Shown here: positions 29,582 through 37,601 of the stretch, piece after piece | Position numbering within the stretch: position 1 is the first letter of the stretch | Layout of the letters: each line of letters starts with the position of its first letter | NCBI GenBank assembly: GCA_027623325.1 | Contig: JAQBXY010000010.1 | Location: 1 to 64,000, forward strand | DNA length: 64,000 nt | Source of the DNA: Gemmatimonadota bacterium | Lineage (GTDB): Bacteria; Gemmatimonadota; Gemmatimonadetes; Longimicrobiales; Gaopeijiaceae | Reading direction: 5' to 3' | Program-made: the position numbers and the translations under genes | The notes under the pieces: model-generated | Database searches by the model: none | The model's input: the letters and a program-made list of their open reading frames with translations, nothing else | Told to the model about the DNA's origin: nothing

Positions 29582-29856
29582 AGGATGACGTCTCCGCCCG
29601 GATCCCGCTTCTTGAGCGCTTCGATCGCGGCCTGACCTTGGGAGCGACGTGCCGATTCTACGGCGTCGTCGCGGACGGATGCCTCCCAGATCGGCTCTCC
29701 GACGGTGCCAACGGGGACGCGGAGGACCGCCCCTTCGACCGCGTGGGGTCCGAGCAGCTCCGCTGCCACTTCGACCACGGTCTCAGAGTCGTCTTCCACG
29801 AGTATCGCTAGGCCGTTCTCGACCCGGTCGACGACCCAGATCTCTTCACTACTCAT
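29578..29856 (-). CDS. DUF3006 domain protein
   Basis: The 92-residue protein matches DUF3006, a small beta-rich domain: EEIWVVDRVENGLAILVEDD followed by VEGAVLRVPVG. Members are short cytoplasmic proteins without known activity, and they often sit beside ComEC-like metallo-hydrolase genes, as here. The start overlaps the end of the MBL gene by eight bases and the stop overlaps the TTG start of the DUF5916 gene, so the three genes form one coupled unit. The C-terminal half is charged and probably helical. Confidence 0.85.
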   Translation of the reverse strand: MSSEEIWVVDRVENGLAILVEDDSETVVEVAAELLGPHAVEGAVLRVPVGTVGEPIWEASVRDDAVESARRSQGQAAIEALKKRDPGGDVIL

Positions 29857-31105
29857 ATACGTACCTCAGCACGGTCGAGCCCTGGGCATCGAAAAGAGTC
29901 GCCACATCACCGTCGTTGTTCCAGACCGCCCTGCCATTGTTCATGAAGAATGACACCCCGTCCGCCACGCCATAGCCTGTGTAGACCACCACGCGCCGAC
30001 CCGCCTCAATCCGTGCGTCATCGGGGAACCGGAAGCAACGACTCGCCACGTCGCACAGTAACCAGCGCCCGAGGTCCACGGCGTTGGAGGCGTGACTCTC
30101 GATGACCACGTACTCGCCATTGAGGTTGCGGTGATCGTCACCGGGGGCGTCGGGAATGACCAGGAGCGAGAGGAGCGCGTTGCCGGGCTCCGACTCCGTA
30201 GCGGAATGCGTCTGGCCGGAGGTGTCGGAGCCACCCGATTCAGTCGATTCGCCCTCATCACGGTCCCGCCCGAGTACGACCTCGTAGGTGCCATCCGCAT
30301 ACCCGAGAATCGTGACGTGGCCATCGCGATCCGTTCGGAATACATCGCTTGCCACCGCCGAAAAGGCGGTGAGCGCCTCGGGCCGGGGATGCTCGTAGCT
30401 GTTGTCCCGTCCGACGGAGATGACGACGACTTCTGGCCGGGCCACTTCGAGAAAGTCACGGGTGAAGCCATTCTGGCTGCCGTGATGTGCCGCTTTGAGA
30501 AGTGTTACGTCGGGTACGACGCCGCTCCTTACGAAGTGCGTCAGCTCCTCCTCCTCGGAGTCACCACTGAAGAACGCCGAGAAGCGACCAAACCGCACCA
30601 CCAGACCCACCGACCGGTTATTGTGATCTACCGCGTCCACCGGCGGAAGGGGCAATACTTCGATCGAGGCGCTTCCGAGGGCGATGCTCCGTGGAACGGC
30701 CTCCAGATAGGTGACCTCGGACAATCGCTCGAGCGCCTCCATCAGCCGACGGTAGGTGGCCGTGGTATGCGACTGCCCGTTGTCCATGTAGAACCGCACG
30801 GGCCTCGCAGTCAGGACATCGACCATACCCCCGATGTGGTCGGCGTGTGGGTGGGTGGCAACGAGGAGGTCGATCCCTTCGATGTTCATCTGCTGCAAGA
30901 AACGGAGGGGTGCCCCGGGCCCCGCGTCGATCATCGCGGTTTGACCTTCCGGCGCGCGGATCACCACTGCGTCCCCTTGGCCCACATCAAGGAAGGTGAT
31001 CTGGATGGACGGCTCCTGAGCCCAGATCGGGGCTGCTGCAACCAACACCCCCATCAGGGCGCCGACGATATGCCGGCGAGCGAAGGCGAAGGGTCCGAAA
31101 CTCAT
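29849..31105 (-). CDS. Exported ComEC-like metallo-hydrolase with lamin-tail domain
   Basis: From ATG 31105 the product has 418 residues with a Sec signal (RHIVGALMGVLVAAAPIWAQ). Residues of about 32-290 are the metallo-beta-lactamase part related to the C-terminal domain of ComEC: FLDVGQGDAVVIRAP, THPHADHIGG (His85, His87, Asp89, His90), FSGDSEEEE and AAHHGSQNGF. The last 110 residues (NLNGEYVVIESHASNAVDLG, GRRVVVYTGYG) look like a lamin-tail/LTD beta-sandwich. Such stand-alone proteins may degrade nucleic acid or other phosphodiesters outside the cytoplasm; this is inferred. It is the first gene of the operon with DUF3006 and DUF5916. Confidence 0.88.
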   Translation of the reverse strand: MSFGPFAFARRHIVGALMGVLVAAAPIWAQEPSIQITFLDVGQGDAVVIRAPEGQTAMIDAGPGAPLRFLQQMNIEGIDLLVATHPHADHIGGMVDVLTARPVRFYMDNGQSHTTATYRRLMEALERLSEVTYLEAVPRSIALGSASIEVLPLPPVDAVDHNNRSVGLVVRFGRFSAFFSGDSEEEELTHFVRSGVVPDVTLLKAAHHGSQNGFTRDFLEVARPEVVVISVGRDNSYEHPRPEALTAFSAVASDVFRTDRDGHVTILGYADGTYEVVLGRDRDEGESTESGGSDTSGQTHSATESEPGNALLSLLVIPDAPGDDHRNLNGEYVVIESHASNAVDLGRWLLCDVASRCFRFPDDARIEAGRRVVVYTGYGVADGVSFFMNNGRAVWNNDGDVATLFDAQGSTVLRYVYE

Positions 31106-31142
31106 ACCTGAACGATAGAAGGTCGGACAGTGTAGCGCAGTC

Positions 31143-31859
31143 ATGCCCCTTCCCCATGACAGTTGGGCCGACCAATACGAGACGGTCATGGCCCTCACGT
31201 TCGGCGACCTCTACGCACGGCTCACGTCGGCCGCGCTGGATGAGATCCGGGGCCGAATAAGGCCTCCCGCGTCGATCGTCGACTTCGGCGCCGGGTGCGG
31301 ACGGCTCTCCATACCGTTGGCGGCGGAGGGGTATCTGCTTACCGCGGTCGAGCCATCGCCGGCGATGCTTGGGCAGTTACGCACGCGCACCGGGGATCGA
31401 GATGTGAACGCCGTTGAGTGCACCATGCAGGAATATCGCTCCGATCGGAAGCACGATCTCGCACTGTGCGTATTTACGGTCGTGGCTTATCTGCTCGACG
31501 AGCGAGCACTGCGCGCGGCTTTGTCCGCGGCCGCGCAGTCTCTGCGGCCGGGCGGGCTCTTCTTGCTCGACGTTCCTGATGCATCCGTGTTCGAAGGCTT
31601 CGACCACGACTCGGGGGATATCATGCGCCGCGTCGAGATCGCGTCGGCTGGAGCGTCTCTTTATCAGTTCAATGAAGAGACCACTCTCAGAACCGATGAC
31701 GGCCCCCAGACGTATAGGGACAGCTTTCCGATCCGACACTGGAGGAAGGAAGAGATCCTCGGCGCAACGGAACAGGCGGGCTTCGTCACGGAGGCCGACG
31801 TCACCGCGCGCTTCGAGGACCTGGGGGCGGAGTACCTTCTGCTCCGGCTCGCCCGTTAA
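31143..31859 (+). CDS. Class I SAM-dependent methyltransferase
   Basis: The 238-residue cytoplasmic protein has the class I methyltransferase motifs: motif I SIVDFGAGCGRLSIPLA (SAM binding), the acidic motif II LTAVEPSPAML, and post-I and motif IV segments around KHDLALCVFTVVAYLL. The substrate cannot be derived; small-molecule methylation is the usual role of this group. The gene is divergent from the MBL operon across 37 bases. Its TAA stop overlaps the stop of the small membrane protein gene on the other strand. Confidence 0.85.
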   Translation: MPLPHDSWADQYETVMALTFGDLYARLTSAALDEIRGRIRPPASIVDFGAGCGRLSIPLAAEGYLLTAVEPSPAMLGQLRTRTGDRDVNAVECTMQEYRSDRKHDLALCVFTVVAYLLDERALRAALSAAAQSLRPGGLFLLDVPDASVFEGFDHDSGDIMRRVEIASAGASLYQFNEETTLRTDDGPQTYRDSFPIRHWRKEEILGATEQAGFVTEADVTARFEDLGAEYLLLRLAR

Positions 31860-32071
31860 GCGACTTCGCTCGCCTTCCTCGATCGGCGGTAGAAGAAGGC
31901 GCCGACACCGATCGCTGCCACGAGTCCCAGCGTGATGAGCAGAATCTTGAGCGCGAGCGCGAGAAGCCCCATGACCCATGCGGTCACGGGCACCATCAAG
32001 ATCTTGAGCGCCTCGAGTAGGAGGAACCCGATGACCCCGGTCGCTGTTAGTCCGGCTGCAAACCTCATCAT
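31856..32071 (-). CDS. Small membrane protein (71 residues)
   Basis: I cannot assign a family. The 71-residue product has two hydrophobic segments, about residues 4-30 and 33-62, joined by a very short turn and followed by the basic tail YRRSRKASEVA, which would remain in the cytoplasm. Sequences of this kind are often annotated only as hypothetical membrane proteins. A CGAGG site lies about nine bases upstream of the ATG. Its TAA stop overlaps the methyltransferase stop by three of four bases (TTAA). Confidence 0.6.
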   Translation of the reverse strand: MMRFAAGLTATGVIGFLLLEALKILMVPVTAWVMGLLALALKILLITLGLVAAIGVGAFFYRRSRKASEVA

Positions 32072-32187: not shown

Positions 32188-33057
32188 CTAACCCACGATC
32201 CCGAGAGTGAGAATTCCGAACAGAAGTCCAAGCCCCACACCGATCCGCGACTTGCTCCAACCCGATTCGCCACCCACCTCGGGCTCCTTCGTCCAAAAGA
32301 GCACGACACCACACTGGGTGCCCCCGGCATCCTGGTATTGCACGGGGGCGAAGAGGGAGGACGAATAGACTTCGACACCGGCAATGAGGTCCGGTGACAA
32401 GAGATCGTCGATCGAGTGTTGCGCCGACTGTTGGACGCGAACGCCATCGATGAACGTCCGTGCGACACAACCACCCGCGACGATTACGCTGCGATCCAAT
32501 CCGAACGCACCACCGACCGAACTGACCGAAACGCCCGGGACGCCTAGCACCAAATTGGATGGTGTGGACATGGGTCGCCGTTCGATCTCCGACTCGGTAA
32601 TGAAGTAGCCGGCCCGCCCCGGATCGTTCATTCGGCGCCGAAAGTCGGCGAGGCGCCCCATCCCTGAATTCATCGCGACGACCGTGATTGGATCCAGGGG
32701 AATCGCTTCCACGCCGAGTCGGACCTCAACGTCAAGAGTAGCATCTGTCCCGAGCGCGAAACTGGCCGTACCCCAACTCGCGTATCCGAGATGGCTCACC
32801 TCCAGCTGGACCAGGCCGGCGGAGTCGGCGACCAACTCGAAACGGCCATTGTCTTCGGAAACGGCGACGGCGCGTACGTTGCCTTCCGTGTCGCGAAGAA
32901 TCAGGCGCACATCCTCGATCGGGTTGTTCGACCCCGACTCGAGTACGACACCCCGCACGGTTTGGCCGGCCGACGGGGTCGCAACGTAGACCGCCACAAG
33001 CAGCGTCAGTCCCACGGAGCGGGCCAGGCACGTCGCGATCGAGACGCCGGATACCAT
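32188..33057 (-). CDS. Carboxypeptidase-regulatory-like plus TonB-plug protein without barrel
   Basis: From ATG 33057, with AGGAGG upstream, the product has 289 residues. After a signal peptide (VGLTLLVAVYVATPSAGQ) comes a carboxypeptidase-regulatory-like domain (VRGVVLESGSNNPIEDVRLI, then DNGRFELVADSAG), then a TonB-receptor plug-like domain (SNLVLGVPGVSVSSVGGA, IDGVRVQQSAQHSIDDLLSP). Full TonB receptors continue with a 22-strand barrel, but this chain ends after a short hydrophobic stretch (GVGLGLLFGILTLGIVG). Two cysteines, in GGCVARTF and GTQCGVVLF, could form a disulfide. Short plug proteins of this kind are frequent in Gemmatimonadota. An in-frame ATG at 33099 lacks a binding site. Confidence 0.75.
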   Translation of the reverse strand: MVSGVSIATCLARSVGLTLLVAVYVATPSAGQTVRGVVLESGSNNPIEDVRLILRDTEGNVRAVAVSEDNGRFELVADSAGLVQLEVSHLGYASWGTASFALGTDATLDVEVRLGVEAIPLDPITVVAMNSGMGRLADFRRRMNDPGRAGYFITESEIERRPMSTPSNLVLGVPGVSVSSVGGAFGLDRSVIVAGGCVARTFIDGVRVQQSAQHSIDDLLSPDLIAGVEVYSSSLFAPVQYQDAGGTQCGVVLFWTKEPEVGGESGWSKSRIGVGLGLLFGILTLGIVG

Positions 33058-33176
33058 CGGTGGGCAGGCCTCCTGGGATTCGGGGTGTTCGTCGATCATA
33101 CGTAGGCAGGGACCGATAATTTCCTAGGAAGGTCCACCGATGGCGCCCTACATTCCCGAAACCCGGGGGTGAGACA

Positions 33177-33938
33177 GTGAAATCGCAGAGCCGACTCTTT
33201 CTTCTAGCGGTCCTTGTATACACGGCAGGCGCATGCGCGCCGAAGGCCGTGCCGCTCGCCACTCAGCCGGCCCCGCCGTCGGTCGTGGACACGGTCGTCG
33301 TCGTAGACACCGTGCGTGTCGAAACCGAAGCCTCAGCTGACGCGGAGCTGCAGACTCAGGTAGCGCGCCTCCAGATCCAGCTTCTCGAACGTGACGTTCG
33401 CCTGGAGGGAATGCAGGAGCAGCTCGACGCGACTCGCCAAGAAGTGGTCAGGAATTTGGCCAAGCTCCAGAGTCAGGCCAGCCGGGCGGAAGCGGCATCG
33501 GGCATGGCCGAAGCCGAGATCGCCCTTCAGGCACTCGGACGTGTTCAGGGCGGAACGAATCTTCCGGAGTTTGATGAGGCCCAGTCCCGGATCGGGGAAA
33601 GCACCGCAGAGTTCGGCACCGAGAACTACGGGGGCGCACTCTATCTCGCGACGCAGGCACGTGCGCTCGTGCGGACGGGGCAATCGCGCCTGCGTGGGGC
33701 CGGTGCCAGTTCGCTCCTGGCTGGGGAATCTCTCTTCGCGGTCCCCGTCCCTCTGGAGACCGTGCAACGCACGAACGTGCGCTCAGGACCAGGCCTGACC
33801 TTCGACGTCCAATTCACGCTGGATGAAGCGGCCGCCGTGGTCGGGCATTCTTACACGAGCCAATGGGTACGCGTGGTCGACGAGCAGGGTCGCGAGGGAT
33901 GGGTGTTTCATACCCTCGTGAAGGGCCGCGCCCGATAG
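33177..33938 (+). CDS. Lipoprotein with coiled coil and SH3 domain
   Basis: The GTG start is preceded by GGGGGTGAG. The 253-residue product has a lipobox (FLLAVLVYTAGACAPK, Cys20), a Pro/Val-rich linker, a long coiled coil over about residues 55-115 (LQTQVARLQIQLLERDVRL), a helical region similar to tetratricopeptide segments, and a C-terminal bacterial SH3 domain (QRTNVRSGPGLTFDVQFTL, VVDEQGREGWVFHTLV). Such proteins usually attach to peptidoglycan or the cell envelope. No enzymatic site is seen. It is divergent from the plug protein and convergent with the ADOP-GGDEF gene. Confidence 0.8.
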   Translation: MKSQSRLFLLAVLVYTAGACAPKAVPLATQPAPPSVVDTVVVVDTVRVETEASADAELQTQVARLQIQLLERDVRLEGMQEQLDATRQEVVRNLAKLQSQASRAEAASGMAEAEIALQALGRVQGGTNLPEFDEAQSRIGESTAEFGTENYGGALYLATQARALVRTGQSRLRGAGASSLLAGESLFAVPVPLETVQRTNVRSGPGLTFDVQFTLDEAAAVVGHSYTSQWVRVVDEQGREGWVFHTLVKGRAR

Positions 33939-33964: not shown

Positions 33965-36472
33965 CTACTTCTTCTTCGGCGCTGCCTTTCTTCTTGCCGC
34001 GGGCGACTCCTTCTTCGCTTCATCCGCAGGTGCGTCCGTCTTCGGCGCGGGCTGCCCGGCCGCCATGACACGATCCCGCCCACTCTCCTTCGCCTCGTAG
34101 AGCGCTACGTCAGCGGCCGCGATGAGGTCCTTGGCAGAAGCACCATGGGTCGGGTACTCCGAAGCGCCGATGCTCACCGTTACCTGACGGCCGTCGAAGA
34201 CCTCCTTCGCCAGCCTCGTGCGAATCCGTTCCGCTGCGTCGACCGCGCCCTGTAGATCACAGTCGGGAAGAAGAACGATGAACTCTTCGCCACCGTATCG
34301 GGCCGGGATATCGGGTTCACGCGTCGCCTCTCGCACGACCCGACCCATACCCATCAGCACCTGATCGCCGGCCGGATGACCGAAGGAGTCGTTGTACTGT
34401 TTGAAGCGATCGACGTCCATCATGAGTACGGCGAACTTCCGCTCGTGGCGGGATGCGCGATGGATCTCCTTGTCGAACTCCTGCATCACGTACCGACGAT
34501 TGAAGAGGGACGTAAGCGCGTCGGTCATCGAGATCCGTTCGAGCTCCACATTCTGCTCCCGGAGAATCGAGCTAGCCTCATCGATGACGATCACCGGTAC
34601 GTTGCCGACCCGGTCTTCCTCGGTGAACACCCGGCCCTCGATGACCTCGATGCCCATCACGTCGAAGTAGTCCGCGCTCACGATGTCGTACTGCGCGAAG
34701 CGCTGTTCATCCGTCGGCTCGATTCGAAACCCCCAGGGCATGTTCACCCCGGCCATCGGCGGACTCGTCGCGATCGCGACATCGAGCCCTCGGGCCTGGA
34801 GATTCTGTAGGAGGACTCGCCAGTAGATGGCCCGACTTTCAGGCGTCGGGTACCGCTCACCCCTAGCCATGATCTCGGCAGATGCCACCCCTTGAGCCTC
34901 GAATCCGAGGTCGACGCCTTGAAGCGTCACCACGTGTCGGATCACCCCCGCCCCGGTGGTGGCGAGCAGCGTGGTGAGCGCGACCTGACTGGCGACGAGG
35001 GCGCTTCGACCGGCCAGGCCGGTTCCAATGCCCGTGGCGCTGCGACCGATGGCGGGCGCCACCCCCCGCGACAACAGGTAGCCGAGAAGCCCAACCAGCC
35101 AGCCCGACAGAAGCGCCAAGGCCAGAATTGCTCCGCCAACACCGGCGCTGAGGCGCACATCTCCGGCCCGCGGCACGTCGGAGGGCACGAGCGCCGCGAG
35201 CGGGATGAGGAGCCCGTAGGCGACGAGTAGCGCGAACCCTCCCGCCATCGCTCCGACGAGAACCGCTTCAACGAGACTGCCGCGCATGAGCCTTCGTTCC
35301 GATGCGCCCAAGGCGAGACGAATCCCTCGATCATGGCGCCCATCTACCGTCCTCGCTGCTACGAGGCCCGCGACGTTCACGACTGCAAGCAGAAGAAAGA
35401 CGCAGCCGGCGGCGAGCAGGAGGCCCATGACACCGCGATAGGGGCGCATGAGTTCTTCGGTGAGGCTCACCGCTTCTCCACCCCACCCACGGTGATGGGC
35501 AAAGCGTTCCCCGAAGGAGAGGACGACCCGGTTCATCTCCGCCGTCGCATCGTCCACCGAGTGTGTAGGAGCGACGCGAGCGACCACATCGATATACCTC
35601 GCTCCCCGCATGCCCAGCACGAGTTGGTCCGGGCCGAAGGACATGCGCACGATCAGCTCTGCGTCGTCAGGATATCCGGACGGAAGTCGCACGACGCCCA
35701 CGATCCGGTGCGACTCACCGGAGAGCATGAGTGATCCGGATCCGACGACGCCGGGATCGGCTCCGAACACTCGTCGCCAGAAGGCCTCCGAGAGCACCAC
35801 CTCCGGAGCATCTTCATCGAAAGACAGGGCGCGCCCAAAAAGGGGGGCGATCCCGAGGATTTCAAACAGCTCCGGTGAGACGACGAGAGCGGTGATCCGT
35901 GATGTTCCCTCCTCCCTCCTCCAGTCGAGGACGTTCCGAGATACGCCGGCGACGGCCGAAACGGTGGTCCAGTCGTACGCGCGGAGATCTTCGAGGAAGG
36001 GTGGCGACAATCGCCAGCGGGTGCGCTCTACCTCGGCGCTACCGGCAGCCAGAGGTTCCACTTCGAGGAGCCGAACCACTCGCTCCGGGTCAGGAAACGG
36101 CATCGGCGCCAGCCAAACATGCCAAGCCACGGAAAGTACGGCGGCGGCTGACGCCAGGCCGATCGCGAGCGTACCGGTCACTCCCGCCGTGTAGAGGGGC
36201 TTTCGTCTCAAGACGCGGAGGCTCTGGCGGATGTCGCCGATCAGCCCCTGCCACGAACGACGATTGAGCAGGTCGAGATCGGGCACCGCTGCCGCGGAGA
36301 TCGCGCGGACAGCTTGCGACCAGTACCAACGCCGAGCGGCTCCGGCGCCGGACTCCTCCGCGATCGCCAAGAACCGTTCACCGAGGTCCTCACAAATGAA
36401 CGGACGATCCTCGCGCGCTGAAAAGAGTCGCACCAACGCCCTGGCGAGCTGCGGCACCTCGGGCTTCATCAC
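33965..36472 (-). CDS. Chimeric ADOP permease-GGDEF diguanylate cyclase
   Basis: The 835-residue frame joins two unrelated parts. Residues 1 to about 632 are an ADOP permease: N-terminal helical domain, TM1 (about 96-120), MacB-like periplasmic domain, an FtsX block with three TMs (about 355-475), TM5 (about 500-520) and the start of the second MacB domain, ending VPVIVIDEA. Residues from about 634 are a diguanylate cyclase: a linker SSILREQNVELERIS, MTDALTSLFNRRYVMQEF, GGEEF at 727-731 and an I-site RxxD at 718-721, then a Lys/Ala-rich tail. The last part of MacB domain 2 and the final three TMs are missing. Five TMs predict a periplasmic GGDEF domain, where there is no GTP. The start overlaps the PadR stop (ATGA). 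A real fusion, a decayed locus or an assembly join are all possible. Confidence 0.8.
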   Translation of the reverse strand: MMKPEVPQLARALVRLFSAREDRPFICEDLGERFLAIAEESGAGAARRWYWSQAVRAISAAAVPDLDLLNRRSWQGLIGDIRQSLRVLRRKPLYTAGVTGTLAIGLASAAAVLSVAWHVWLAPMPFPDPERVVRLLEVEPLAAGSAEVERTRWRLSPPFLEDLRAYDWTTVSAVAGVSRNVLDWRREEGTSRITALVVSPELFEILGIAPLFGRALSFDEDAPEVVLSEAFWRRVFGADPGVVGSGSLMLSGESHRIVGVVRLPSGYPDDAELIVRMSFGPDQLVLGMRGARYIDVVARVAPTHSVDDATAEMNRVVLSFGERFAHHRGWGGEAVSLTEELMRPYRGVMGLLLAAGCVFLLLAVVNVAGLVAARTVDGRHDRGIRLALGASERRLMRGSLVEAVLVGAMAGGFALLVAYGLLIPLAALVPSDVPRAGDVRLSAGVGGAILALALLSGWLVGLLGYLLSRGVAPAIGRSATGIGTGLAGRSALVASQVALTTLLATTGAGVIRHVVTLQGVDLGFEAQGVASAEIMARGERYPTPESRAIYWRVLLQNLQARGLDVAIATSPPMAGVNMPWGFRIEPTDEQRFAQYDIVSADYFDVMGIEVIEGRVFTEEDRVGNVPVIVIDEASSILREQNVELERISMTDALTSLFNRRYVMQEFDKEIHRASRHERKFAVLMMDVDRFKQYNDSFGHPAGDQVLMGMGRVVREATREPDIPARYGGEEFIVLLPDCDLQGAVDAAERIRTRLAKEVFDGRQVTVSIGASEYPTHGASAKDLIAAADVALYEAKESGRDRVMAAGQPAPKTDAPADEAKKESPAARRKAAPKKK

Positions 36473-36804
36473 CCGCCCCCCTCGGCAAGGGGGCTACTGA
36501 GCCCCTGCCACAGCCCCTCGAGGAGAGCACGGGAGCGGTCGATCGCGGCCTCCCCCTCTGCCAGCAGTCGATAGTCGCGCGTCGTCCTCCGACCGGGAGC
36601 GTTTCCCGTGCCCACACGCGAGGACACCAGAGCCTTACGCTCCATTCGCTTCAGGGTCACGTATACCGCGGGAATCGATACGTCCCTTCCCGTCGCATCG
36701 AGAATCTCGCGGTGGATCGACGCGCCGTAGGCATCGTCTCCGAGGCGGGCGAGAGCGAGCAAGACAACGAGTTCGAACTCCCCGAGATAGTCACGACCAC
36801 CCAT
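36469..36804 (-). CDS. PadR-family transcriptional regulator (ADOP-associated)
   Basis: The 111-residue regulator starts MGGRDYLGEFELVVLLALARLGDDAYGASIH in family terms (ATG 36804, GGGGG upstream) and carries the recognition segment IPAVYVTLKRMERKALVSSR. ADOP-linked PadR proteins typically begin with this LGEFE block. An upstream in-frame start at 36831 would fall inside the operator and is rejected. The gene overlaps the permease start by four bases (ATGA). A perfect palindrome in its promoter region is the likely operator, so autoregulation is expected. The PadR at 7657-8022 belongs to another subtype. Confidence 0.9.
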   Translation of the reverse strand: MGGRDYLGEFELVVLLALARLGDDAYGASIHREILDATGRDVSIPAVYVTLKRMERKALVSSRVGTGNAPGRRTTRDYRLLAEGEAAIDRSRALLEGLWQGLSSPLAEGGG

Positions 36805-36826
36805 GGATCCCCCGTGAGGCAGCAAC

Positions 36827-36850
36827 AACATTGTTTAGGTAAACAATGTT
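36827..36850 (-). promoter_or_regulatory. Perfect palindromic operator upstream of padR
   Basis: AACATTGTTTA and TAAACAATGTT are exact reverse complements separated by GG, 23 bases ahead of the padR ATG. It lies in an AT-rich patch in an otherwise GC-rich region, where the promoter should be. Eleven-base perfect arms fit a homodimeric PadR regulator. Binding is inferred from position and symmetry. Confidence 0.7.
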
Positions 36851-36893: not shown

Positions 36894-37490
36894 CTAGAGG
36901 TCCACCCAGACGCCGCCCGGCCCCGCGTTCACGATGCGGGTGTCACGTTCCCATGATTCCTGGGTCCAGCACGCGTGTATATGCCCACATACCGCGAGCC
37001 GAGGCTGAGCGCGCTCGATCGTCTCCAGGATCGCCCGACTACCCAAGTGGTGCCCGCCCACCTCGTCGACATGCCCCAGGGGTGGAGCGTGCGTCACCAG
37101 AACCCCACCCGTGGGACACGAATCGAGCAGGGTTCGGGCCCCACCCTCACTGAGGTCGAAGCTCCAGGAGCCGAAGGGTGTCACCGGGACCGCCCCACCG
37201 AGTCCCCAGAATCGGATCCCGTCGAGGTCGCATCCGGTCCCGTGCAGCACGTGTGCGGCCGACCATCCAAGGCACGCCGCGGCAAGCTCCGCGTCGGACT
37301 CGCCGTTCCCGGCAACCAGCACCGTGGGCGCCGTGATGGCCGACAAGATGTCGACCGTCTCCTGAAGCCCCGTTCGCATGACGCCGAGGTCACCCGCGCA
37401 GATGACGACATCCGCATCGACGGATCGCGCGACGAGGCGCTCGGCCGCATCCGCATCGCAGTGGACGTCACTGAACAACAGAAGTCTCAT
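36894..37490 (-). CDS. Calcineurin-like metallophosphoesterase
   Basis: From ATG 37490 the protein has 198 residues, the normal size for a small bacterial metallophosphoesterase. Metal-site motifs appear in order: LLFSDVHCD (DxH), VICAGDLG (GD), VAGNGESD (replacing the usual GNHD), VLVTHAPPLGHVDE and CGHIHACWTQ (GHxH). The Gly in place of the His of GNHD is a notable change that may alter catalysis. Substrates of this group range from cyclic nucleotides to Nudix-like products. An extension to 37559 lacks family sequence. It is divergent from the M28 lipoprotein gene. Confidence 0.85.
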   Translation of the reverse strand: MRLLLFSDVHCDADAAERLVARSVDADVVICAGDLGVMRTGLQETVDILSAITAPTVLVAGNGESDAELAAACLGWSAAHVLHGTGCDLDGIRFWGLGGAVPVTPFGSWSFDLSEGGARTLLDSCPTGGVLVTHAPPLGHVDEVGGHHLGSRAILETIERAQPRLAVCGHIHACWTQESWERDTRIVNAGPGGVWVDL

Positions 37491-37601
37491 GCCGCGCAAT
37501 CTAGCAGCCCGTTGCAGAAACAAGTGAGGCTCATTGCCCCGTTCCGGTCGAATCGACATGCTGAATCCGCCGCGTCGCCGACCCGTTCAGGAGCACCACC
37601 C

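Follow-up and report, generated by a model that had tools for sequence, protein, structure and literature searches.

A single open reading frame in the 64,000-nt stretch of Gemmatimonadota DNA analyzed here (hereafter, the window) joins the N-terminal part of an ADOP-type permease to the C-terminal part of a diguanylate cyclase (DGC), and we consider it probable that this chimera is a lineage-specific in-frame fusion made by local rearrangement, with both parent functions lost. The first-pass annotation of this DNA had left a choice between a new membrane-tethered c-di-GMP switch and a decayed or misassembled locus. Our results favor the second, in the form of a genuine-looking local rearrangement, and give no support to a conserved switch. 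The structural claims of that annotation all proved correct, although it left the strand, which is minus, unstated.

Layout of the chimeric frame and its join

The frame occupies positions 33965..36472 of the minus strand and comprises 835 codons, read without a stop from 36472 down to 33965, with a GTG start codon that overlaps the stop codon of the upstream padR gene. Both the open frame and the profile matches bear out the earlier reading of a permease (residues 1 to ~632) running directly into a GGDEF domain: Pfam places MacB_PCD at residues 99-315, FtsX at 355-461, and GGDEF at 649-801 (E 9e-46). The best family hit is to the NCBIfam ADOP profile TIGR03434, in which residues 78-633 match positions 2-567 of 803, scoring 338.7 against a curated cut-off of 622.3 that even intact relatives miss (546.8 and 495.3). 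With this partial match below the cut-off and the last three helices absent, the product is not a full-length ADOP permease.

By identity to intact permeases, the permease part (residues 1-632; 34577..36472, minus strand) consists of a cytoplasmic prefix, TM1, MacB core 1, TM2-4, TM5, and the first ~60% of MacB core 2. The DGC part (33965..34576, minus strand), delimited by identity to seven DGCs of the family, comprises a coiled stalk, the GGDEF domain (34070-34528), and a Lys/Ala-rich tail. Stalk and GGDEF domain (residues 637-810) are intact, with PF00990 matched over positions 2-161 of 161 and the motifs GGEEF, DVDRFKQYND, and FNRR all present. The GGEEF active-site (A-site) motif at residues 727-731 (34280..34294, minus strand) and the inhibitory RxxD (I-site) motif, here REPD, at residues 718-721 (34310..34321, minus strand) are unaltered, as annotated.

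Compared codon by codon with three permeases and five DGCs, the frame has its join at residues ~632-637 (34564..34577, minus strand): in alignment with the intact relatives, permease similarity ends at ...VPVIVIDE (34577) and DGC similarity begins by LREQN (34550-34564), leaving at most four codons between the two unassigned. On the cyclase side the cut falls directly after the HAMP domain of intact DGCs, so that stalk and GGDEF domain remain whole. On the permease side it interrupts the second MacB core near position 128 of the 207 in the core profile, in agreement with the earlier placement of the join near 34573, where the second MacB domain breaks off. A domain border is therefore respected on one side only, an outcome that an unselected break could give. 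No mobile element and no repeat linking the two sides was found at the join, the only repeats there being imperfect ones of 14-26 nt. Codon-position G+C is alike in both halves and in the neighbor genes, and thus gives no sign of foreign DNA; foreign origin or contamination was rejected on this match and on the placement of the GGDEF domain among genomes of the same family.

Parent genes, flanking genes, and the lost halves

Intact counterparts of the permease part were found in six relatives. Over residues ~7-632 it is 54% identical to the permease of genome G005 (869 aa), 49% to that of G008 (865 aa), and ~40-44% to those of G009, G017, G099, and G109. The G005 and G008 proteins include the rest of the second MacB core and a further three helices, and the other four align to the same C-terminal part. 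As the first-pass annotation had noted, these last three helices (G005 residues 744-852, two of them exceeding the hydropathy threshold in G008) have no counterpart in the chimera. The PadR-family regulator gene whose stop overlaps the chimera start (36469..36831, minus strand) matches Pfam PF03551 just below the cut-off and encodes a protein 70-72% identical to the PadR beside the permease in G005 and G008, and the same order of padR and adjacent or overlapping permease recurs in all six relatives. A palindrome with perfect 10-bp arms, AACATTGTTT-ACCT-AAACAATGTT, lies before padR (36827..36850), and similar A/T-rich palindromes precede padR in G008 and G009. This element is likely the PadR operator here and a candidate for that role at ADOP loci.

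The GGDEF half is 53-70% identical over 169 residues to cyclases of G005, G006, G024, G110, G135, G136, and G137, with the whole cyclase present in G005, G006, G110, G136 (locus L026), and G137. Pfam checks of those from G005, G006, and L026 showed membrane proteins of 620-663 aa with a dCache-HAMP-GGDEF architecture, the dCache score in G006 lying under the Pfam cut-off. In G135 (L158:9040-10251) the orthologue occupies a frame of 403 aa, and its N-terminal part is read in a different one; this may be a second broken cyclase or the effect of a sequencing indel. Convergent with the chimera is a gene for an SH3-domain protein (33177..33938, plus strand), homologues of which stand tail to tail with the cyclase in six of the seven relatives, the exception being G024, where the contig is short. 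This convergence of SH3 and dCache-HAMP-GGDEF genes recurs in six genomes from three of the family's genera, irrespective of the outer neighbors, and the SH3 protein is a possible functional partner of these cyclases.

Set beside its two parent families, the chimera has the N-terminal prefix, first MacB core, TM1-TM5, and overlapping upstream padR of the ADOP family (TIGR03434), duplicated orphan permeases of MacB/FtsX type that are linked to padR, but lacks TM6-TM8 and half of the second MacB core. It likewise keeps the stalk (LREQN..ELE), the complete GGDEF domain with A- and I-sites, and the convergent SH3 gene of the cyclases of G005, G006, and L026, but carries a permease part in place of their sensor, both membrane helices, and HAMP. 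The missing dCache domain, two helices, and HAMP domain are absent from the rest of the genome as well as from the frame, which is thus not a dCache-HAMP-GGDEF cyclase.

The genes on either side place this chimera within a permease locus. To the right, the arrangement is that of G005, with padR, a metallophosphoesterase gene (36894..37559, minus strand) that lies upstream of the padR-permease pair both here and in G005, and a shared region at 37.6-39.3 kb. To the left, past the SH3 gene, the order is that of G008: a gene for a carboxypeptidase-regulatory/TonB-plug protein (32188..33099, minus strand), which in G008 directly follows the intact permease; a gene for a conserved small membrane protein of 71 aa (MMRFAAGLTATGVIGFLLLEALKILMVPVTAWVMG...; 31856..32071, minus strand; ~80% conserved), found behind the padR-permease pair in G005 and G008; and a gene for a metallo-beta-lactamase-fold protein (29849..31198, minus strand), next in the downstream order in both. 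G005 shares only the last two of these left-flank genes. Because both outer flanks are permease neighbors, a piece of the cyclase locus sits inside the permease locus. A conserved 72-nt element of the left flank was considered as a tRNA and rejected, being part of a small protein gene instead.

These flanks bear directly on the possibility of an assembly artefact, in which a true permease-DGC-SH3-plug tandem, or two loci lying apart, was shortened by the assembler or by a mixed population. The draft genome, in 60 contigs, has an estimated contamination of 3.84%, and relatives do carry permease and cyclase as separate, intact genes. The first-pass annotation had expected such separate genes to mark an artefact; the genes are there, but a single-point misjoin is rejected, since the permease's own downstream genes resume beyond the SH3 gene. 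In addition, no repeat links the sides of the join, composition is uniform, and the lost halves (~230 codons from the permease end and ~437 from the cyclase start) are not left over on any contig. A search of the 3.35-Mb assembly with the N-terminal half of the cyclase (G006 residues 1-427) returned no convincing match elsewhere, and for the permease C-terminus only distant paralogues of ~30% identity. We therefore regard an artefact as unlikely, though it ranks next after lineage-specific fusion.

The two parents are not neighbors in relatives. In G005 they lie among unrelated genes on separate contigs, with the nearest contig ends 9.6 kb and >33 kb away. The cyclase-SH3 pair adjoins infC in G005 and G006, with an icd-like gene on its other side in G006, yet neither a donor scar nor a cyclase remnant was found at icd (contig C60) or infC (contig C59) of the present genome, where the neighbors differ. 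A second donor-flank marker gave no match and carries no weight for the donor site.

With the whole chimera as query, the join was absent from 121 family genomes and 154 order genomes, a set with one genome per species; the halves were found only separately. Comparison with related genomes had been suggested as a check on the join, and its occurrence in no other species (0/121 and 0/154) gives no support to either a conserved permease-GGDEF fusion family or a conserved new switch. No searched genome showed the intermediate order permease-DGC-SH3-plug either. At the search thresholds used, neither gene turned up in most other genomes of the genus, so absence of permease or cyclase is common in the group.

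Predicted topology and activity of the product

Combining helix counts with the known MacB/ADOP layout, we assign the intact relatives a cytoplasmic N-terminus, TM1, an outside core 1, TM2-TM4, TM5, an outside core 2, and TM6-TM8. Because the chimera ends after TM5 and ~60% of core 2, its GGDEF domain is predicted to lie outside, in the periplasm, where there is no GTP. The helix count thus supports the earlier suggestion of a periplasmic GGDEF domain under the usual ADOP topology. AlphaFold models, built for both proteins from shallow alignments and used as supporting evidence only, give the core-2 remnant (residues ~520-640) a pLDDT of 26-55 with almost no strands and the GGDEF domain a pLDDT of ~90, whereas the corresponding region of the intact G005 permease has regular strands at a pLDDT of mostly 56-89. 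The fusion leaves half of a second periplasmic domain, and with core 2 halved, three helices lost, and the GGDEF domain predicted to lie outside, the full-length product is unlikely to work and is most likely inert both as a permease and as a cyclase.

A membrane-tethered switch would require an altered topology that keeps the GGDEF domain cytoplasmic, with the first periplasmic core domain sensing a signal. The sequence shows an undamaged GGDEF domain and five intact helices, and TM5 is somewhat less hydrophobic than in G005 and G008 (below 1.5 vs 1.96 and 1.92); moreover, a laboratory case in which a DGC is joined in frame to a fatty-acid desaturase gene (PFLU0184-0183) had an active phenotype (PMC4395868). 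However, the TM5 sequence is ordinary for the family and so gives an outside C-terminus, the join falls within a half-deleted periplasmic domain predicted to be disordered, and the protein is known from one genome only, leaving this alternative highly improbable.

A free cyclase could also be made from the same message. Sequence inspection identified a candidate internal start, CGGGAG-CAGAAT-GTG (34547..34561, minus strand), at codon 642, which might yield a free GGDEF protein of ~194 aa from a PadR-driven message. Under such promoter capture, the permease part would serve as a leader and the cyclase would be cytoplasmic. A precedent exists in Pseudomonas fluorescens, where deletions have joined a DGC to the gene upstream of it and increased DGC transcription (PMC4395868). 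Consistent with promoter capture, the cyclase is cut just past HAMP with the whole GGDEF domain and its A- and I-sites retained, and the Shine-Dalgarno-like CGGGAG lies 6 nt ahead of GTG 642. Against it, GTG 642 is one such site among 14 candidate starts and may easily be chance, and GGDEF domains without a stalk often dimerize poorly. We judge promoter capture distinctly improbable. Taken together, a naturally fixed fusion in which the DGC domain, under the PadR-controlled permease promoter, has become a new working source of c-di-GMP, whether free by internal start or membrane-bound with changed topology, appears quite unlikely.

Proposed history and significance

For the favored reading, a lineage-specific fusion with loss of both functions, we envisage that the DGC-SH3 pair was placed between the permease and the genes formerly downstream of it, and that a deletion of ~2 kb (230 + 437 codons) then fused permease and cyclase in frame. 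Replacement in one step by a fragment carrying the SH3 gene and the 3' half of the cyclase would have the same end appearance. By either route the permease would be left with three helices fewer and half of its second periplasmic domain, and the cyclase would lose its sensor, both membrane helices, and HAMP relay. The result would be a young fusion gene becoming a pseudogene, presumably still transcribed from the PadR-controlled promoter. Set beside the observed breakpoints, parents, flanks, and absences, the order of these events and their effect on function are what we infer.

The kept frame across the join, which has a 1 in 3 probability by chance, counts against loss of function. Decay is also not visible, because neither half changes faster and all catalytic motifs are kept: the end branch of the permease half is 0.45 in the window copy vs 0.56 and 0.66 in relatives, that of the GGDEF half is 0.14 vs 0.12-0.34, and positions invariant in other species are retained at 92% and 98% in the two halves, respectively. 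The fusion event may thus be recent, or its product may be in use.

Other cyclase genes of the genome are altered as well. One GGDEF gene (C22:16201-16755; L164) has an in-frame TAA nonsense codon inside the GGDEF domain, and a frameshift immediately ahead of the GGDEF domain splits a GAF-GAF-GGDEF cyclase at C8:~293600 (L155:8600-8610). Together with the chimera, this brings the altered cyclase genes of the genome to three or more, unless indel errors in the draft are responsible.

In gene structure, the chimera resembles the fusions of P. fluorescens wrinkly spreaders, in which deletions repeatedly fused an upstream gene in frame to a DGC (PFLU0184-0183, PFLU4305-4306, PFLU4313-4308) and activated the cyclase through raised transcription or altered protein context (PMC4395868); deletion-born DGC fusions are also the subject of Farr et al. 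2017, as cited in the review PMC10333796. Here, too, an upstream gene is joined in frame to a DGC whose GGDEF domain is kept. Unlike the chimera, which is known from sequence, the wrinkly-spreader fusions arose under laboratory selection and have demonstrated activity, and unlike theirs, the parent genes of the chimera are not neighbors in relatives and its join leads into the periplasm. No paper describing a MacB/FtsX-GGDEF fusion was found in the literature searched.

If functional, the chimera would be a natural counterpart of these laboratory-evolved DGC fusions, a rare new c-di-GMP wiring caught at birth. If it is not functional, it would illustrate that scans for odd architectures can mistake a break in a single genome for a new signaling protein, and would provide a clean example of how the neighbor genes of relatives can settle such a case.
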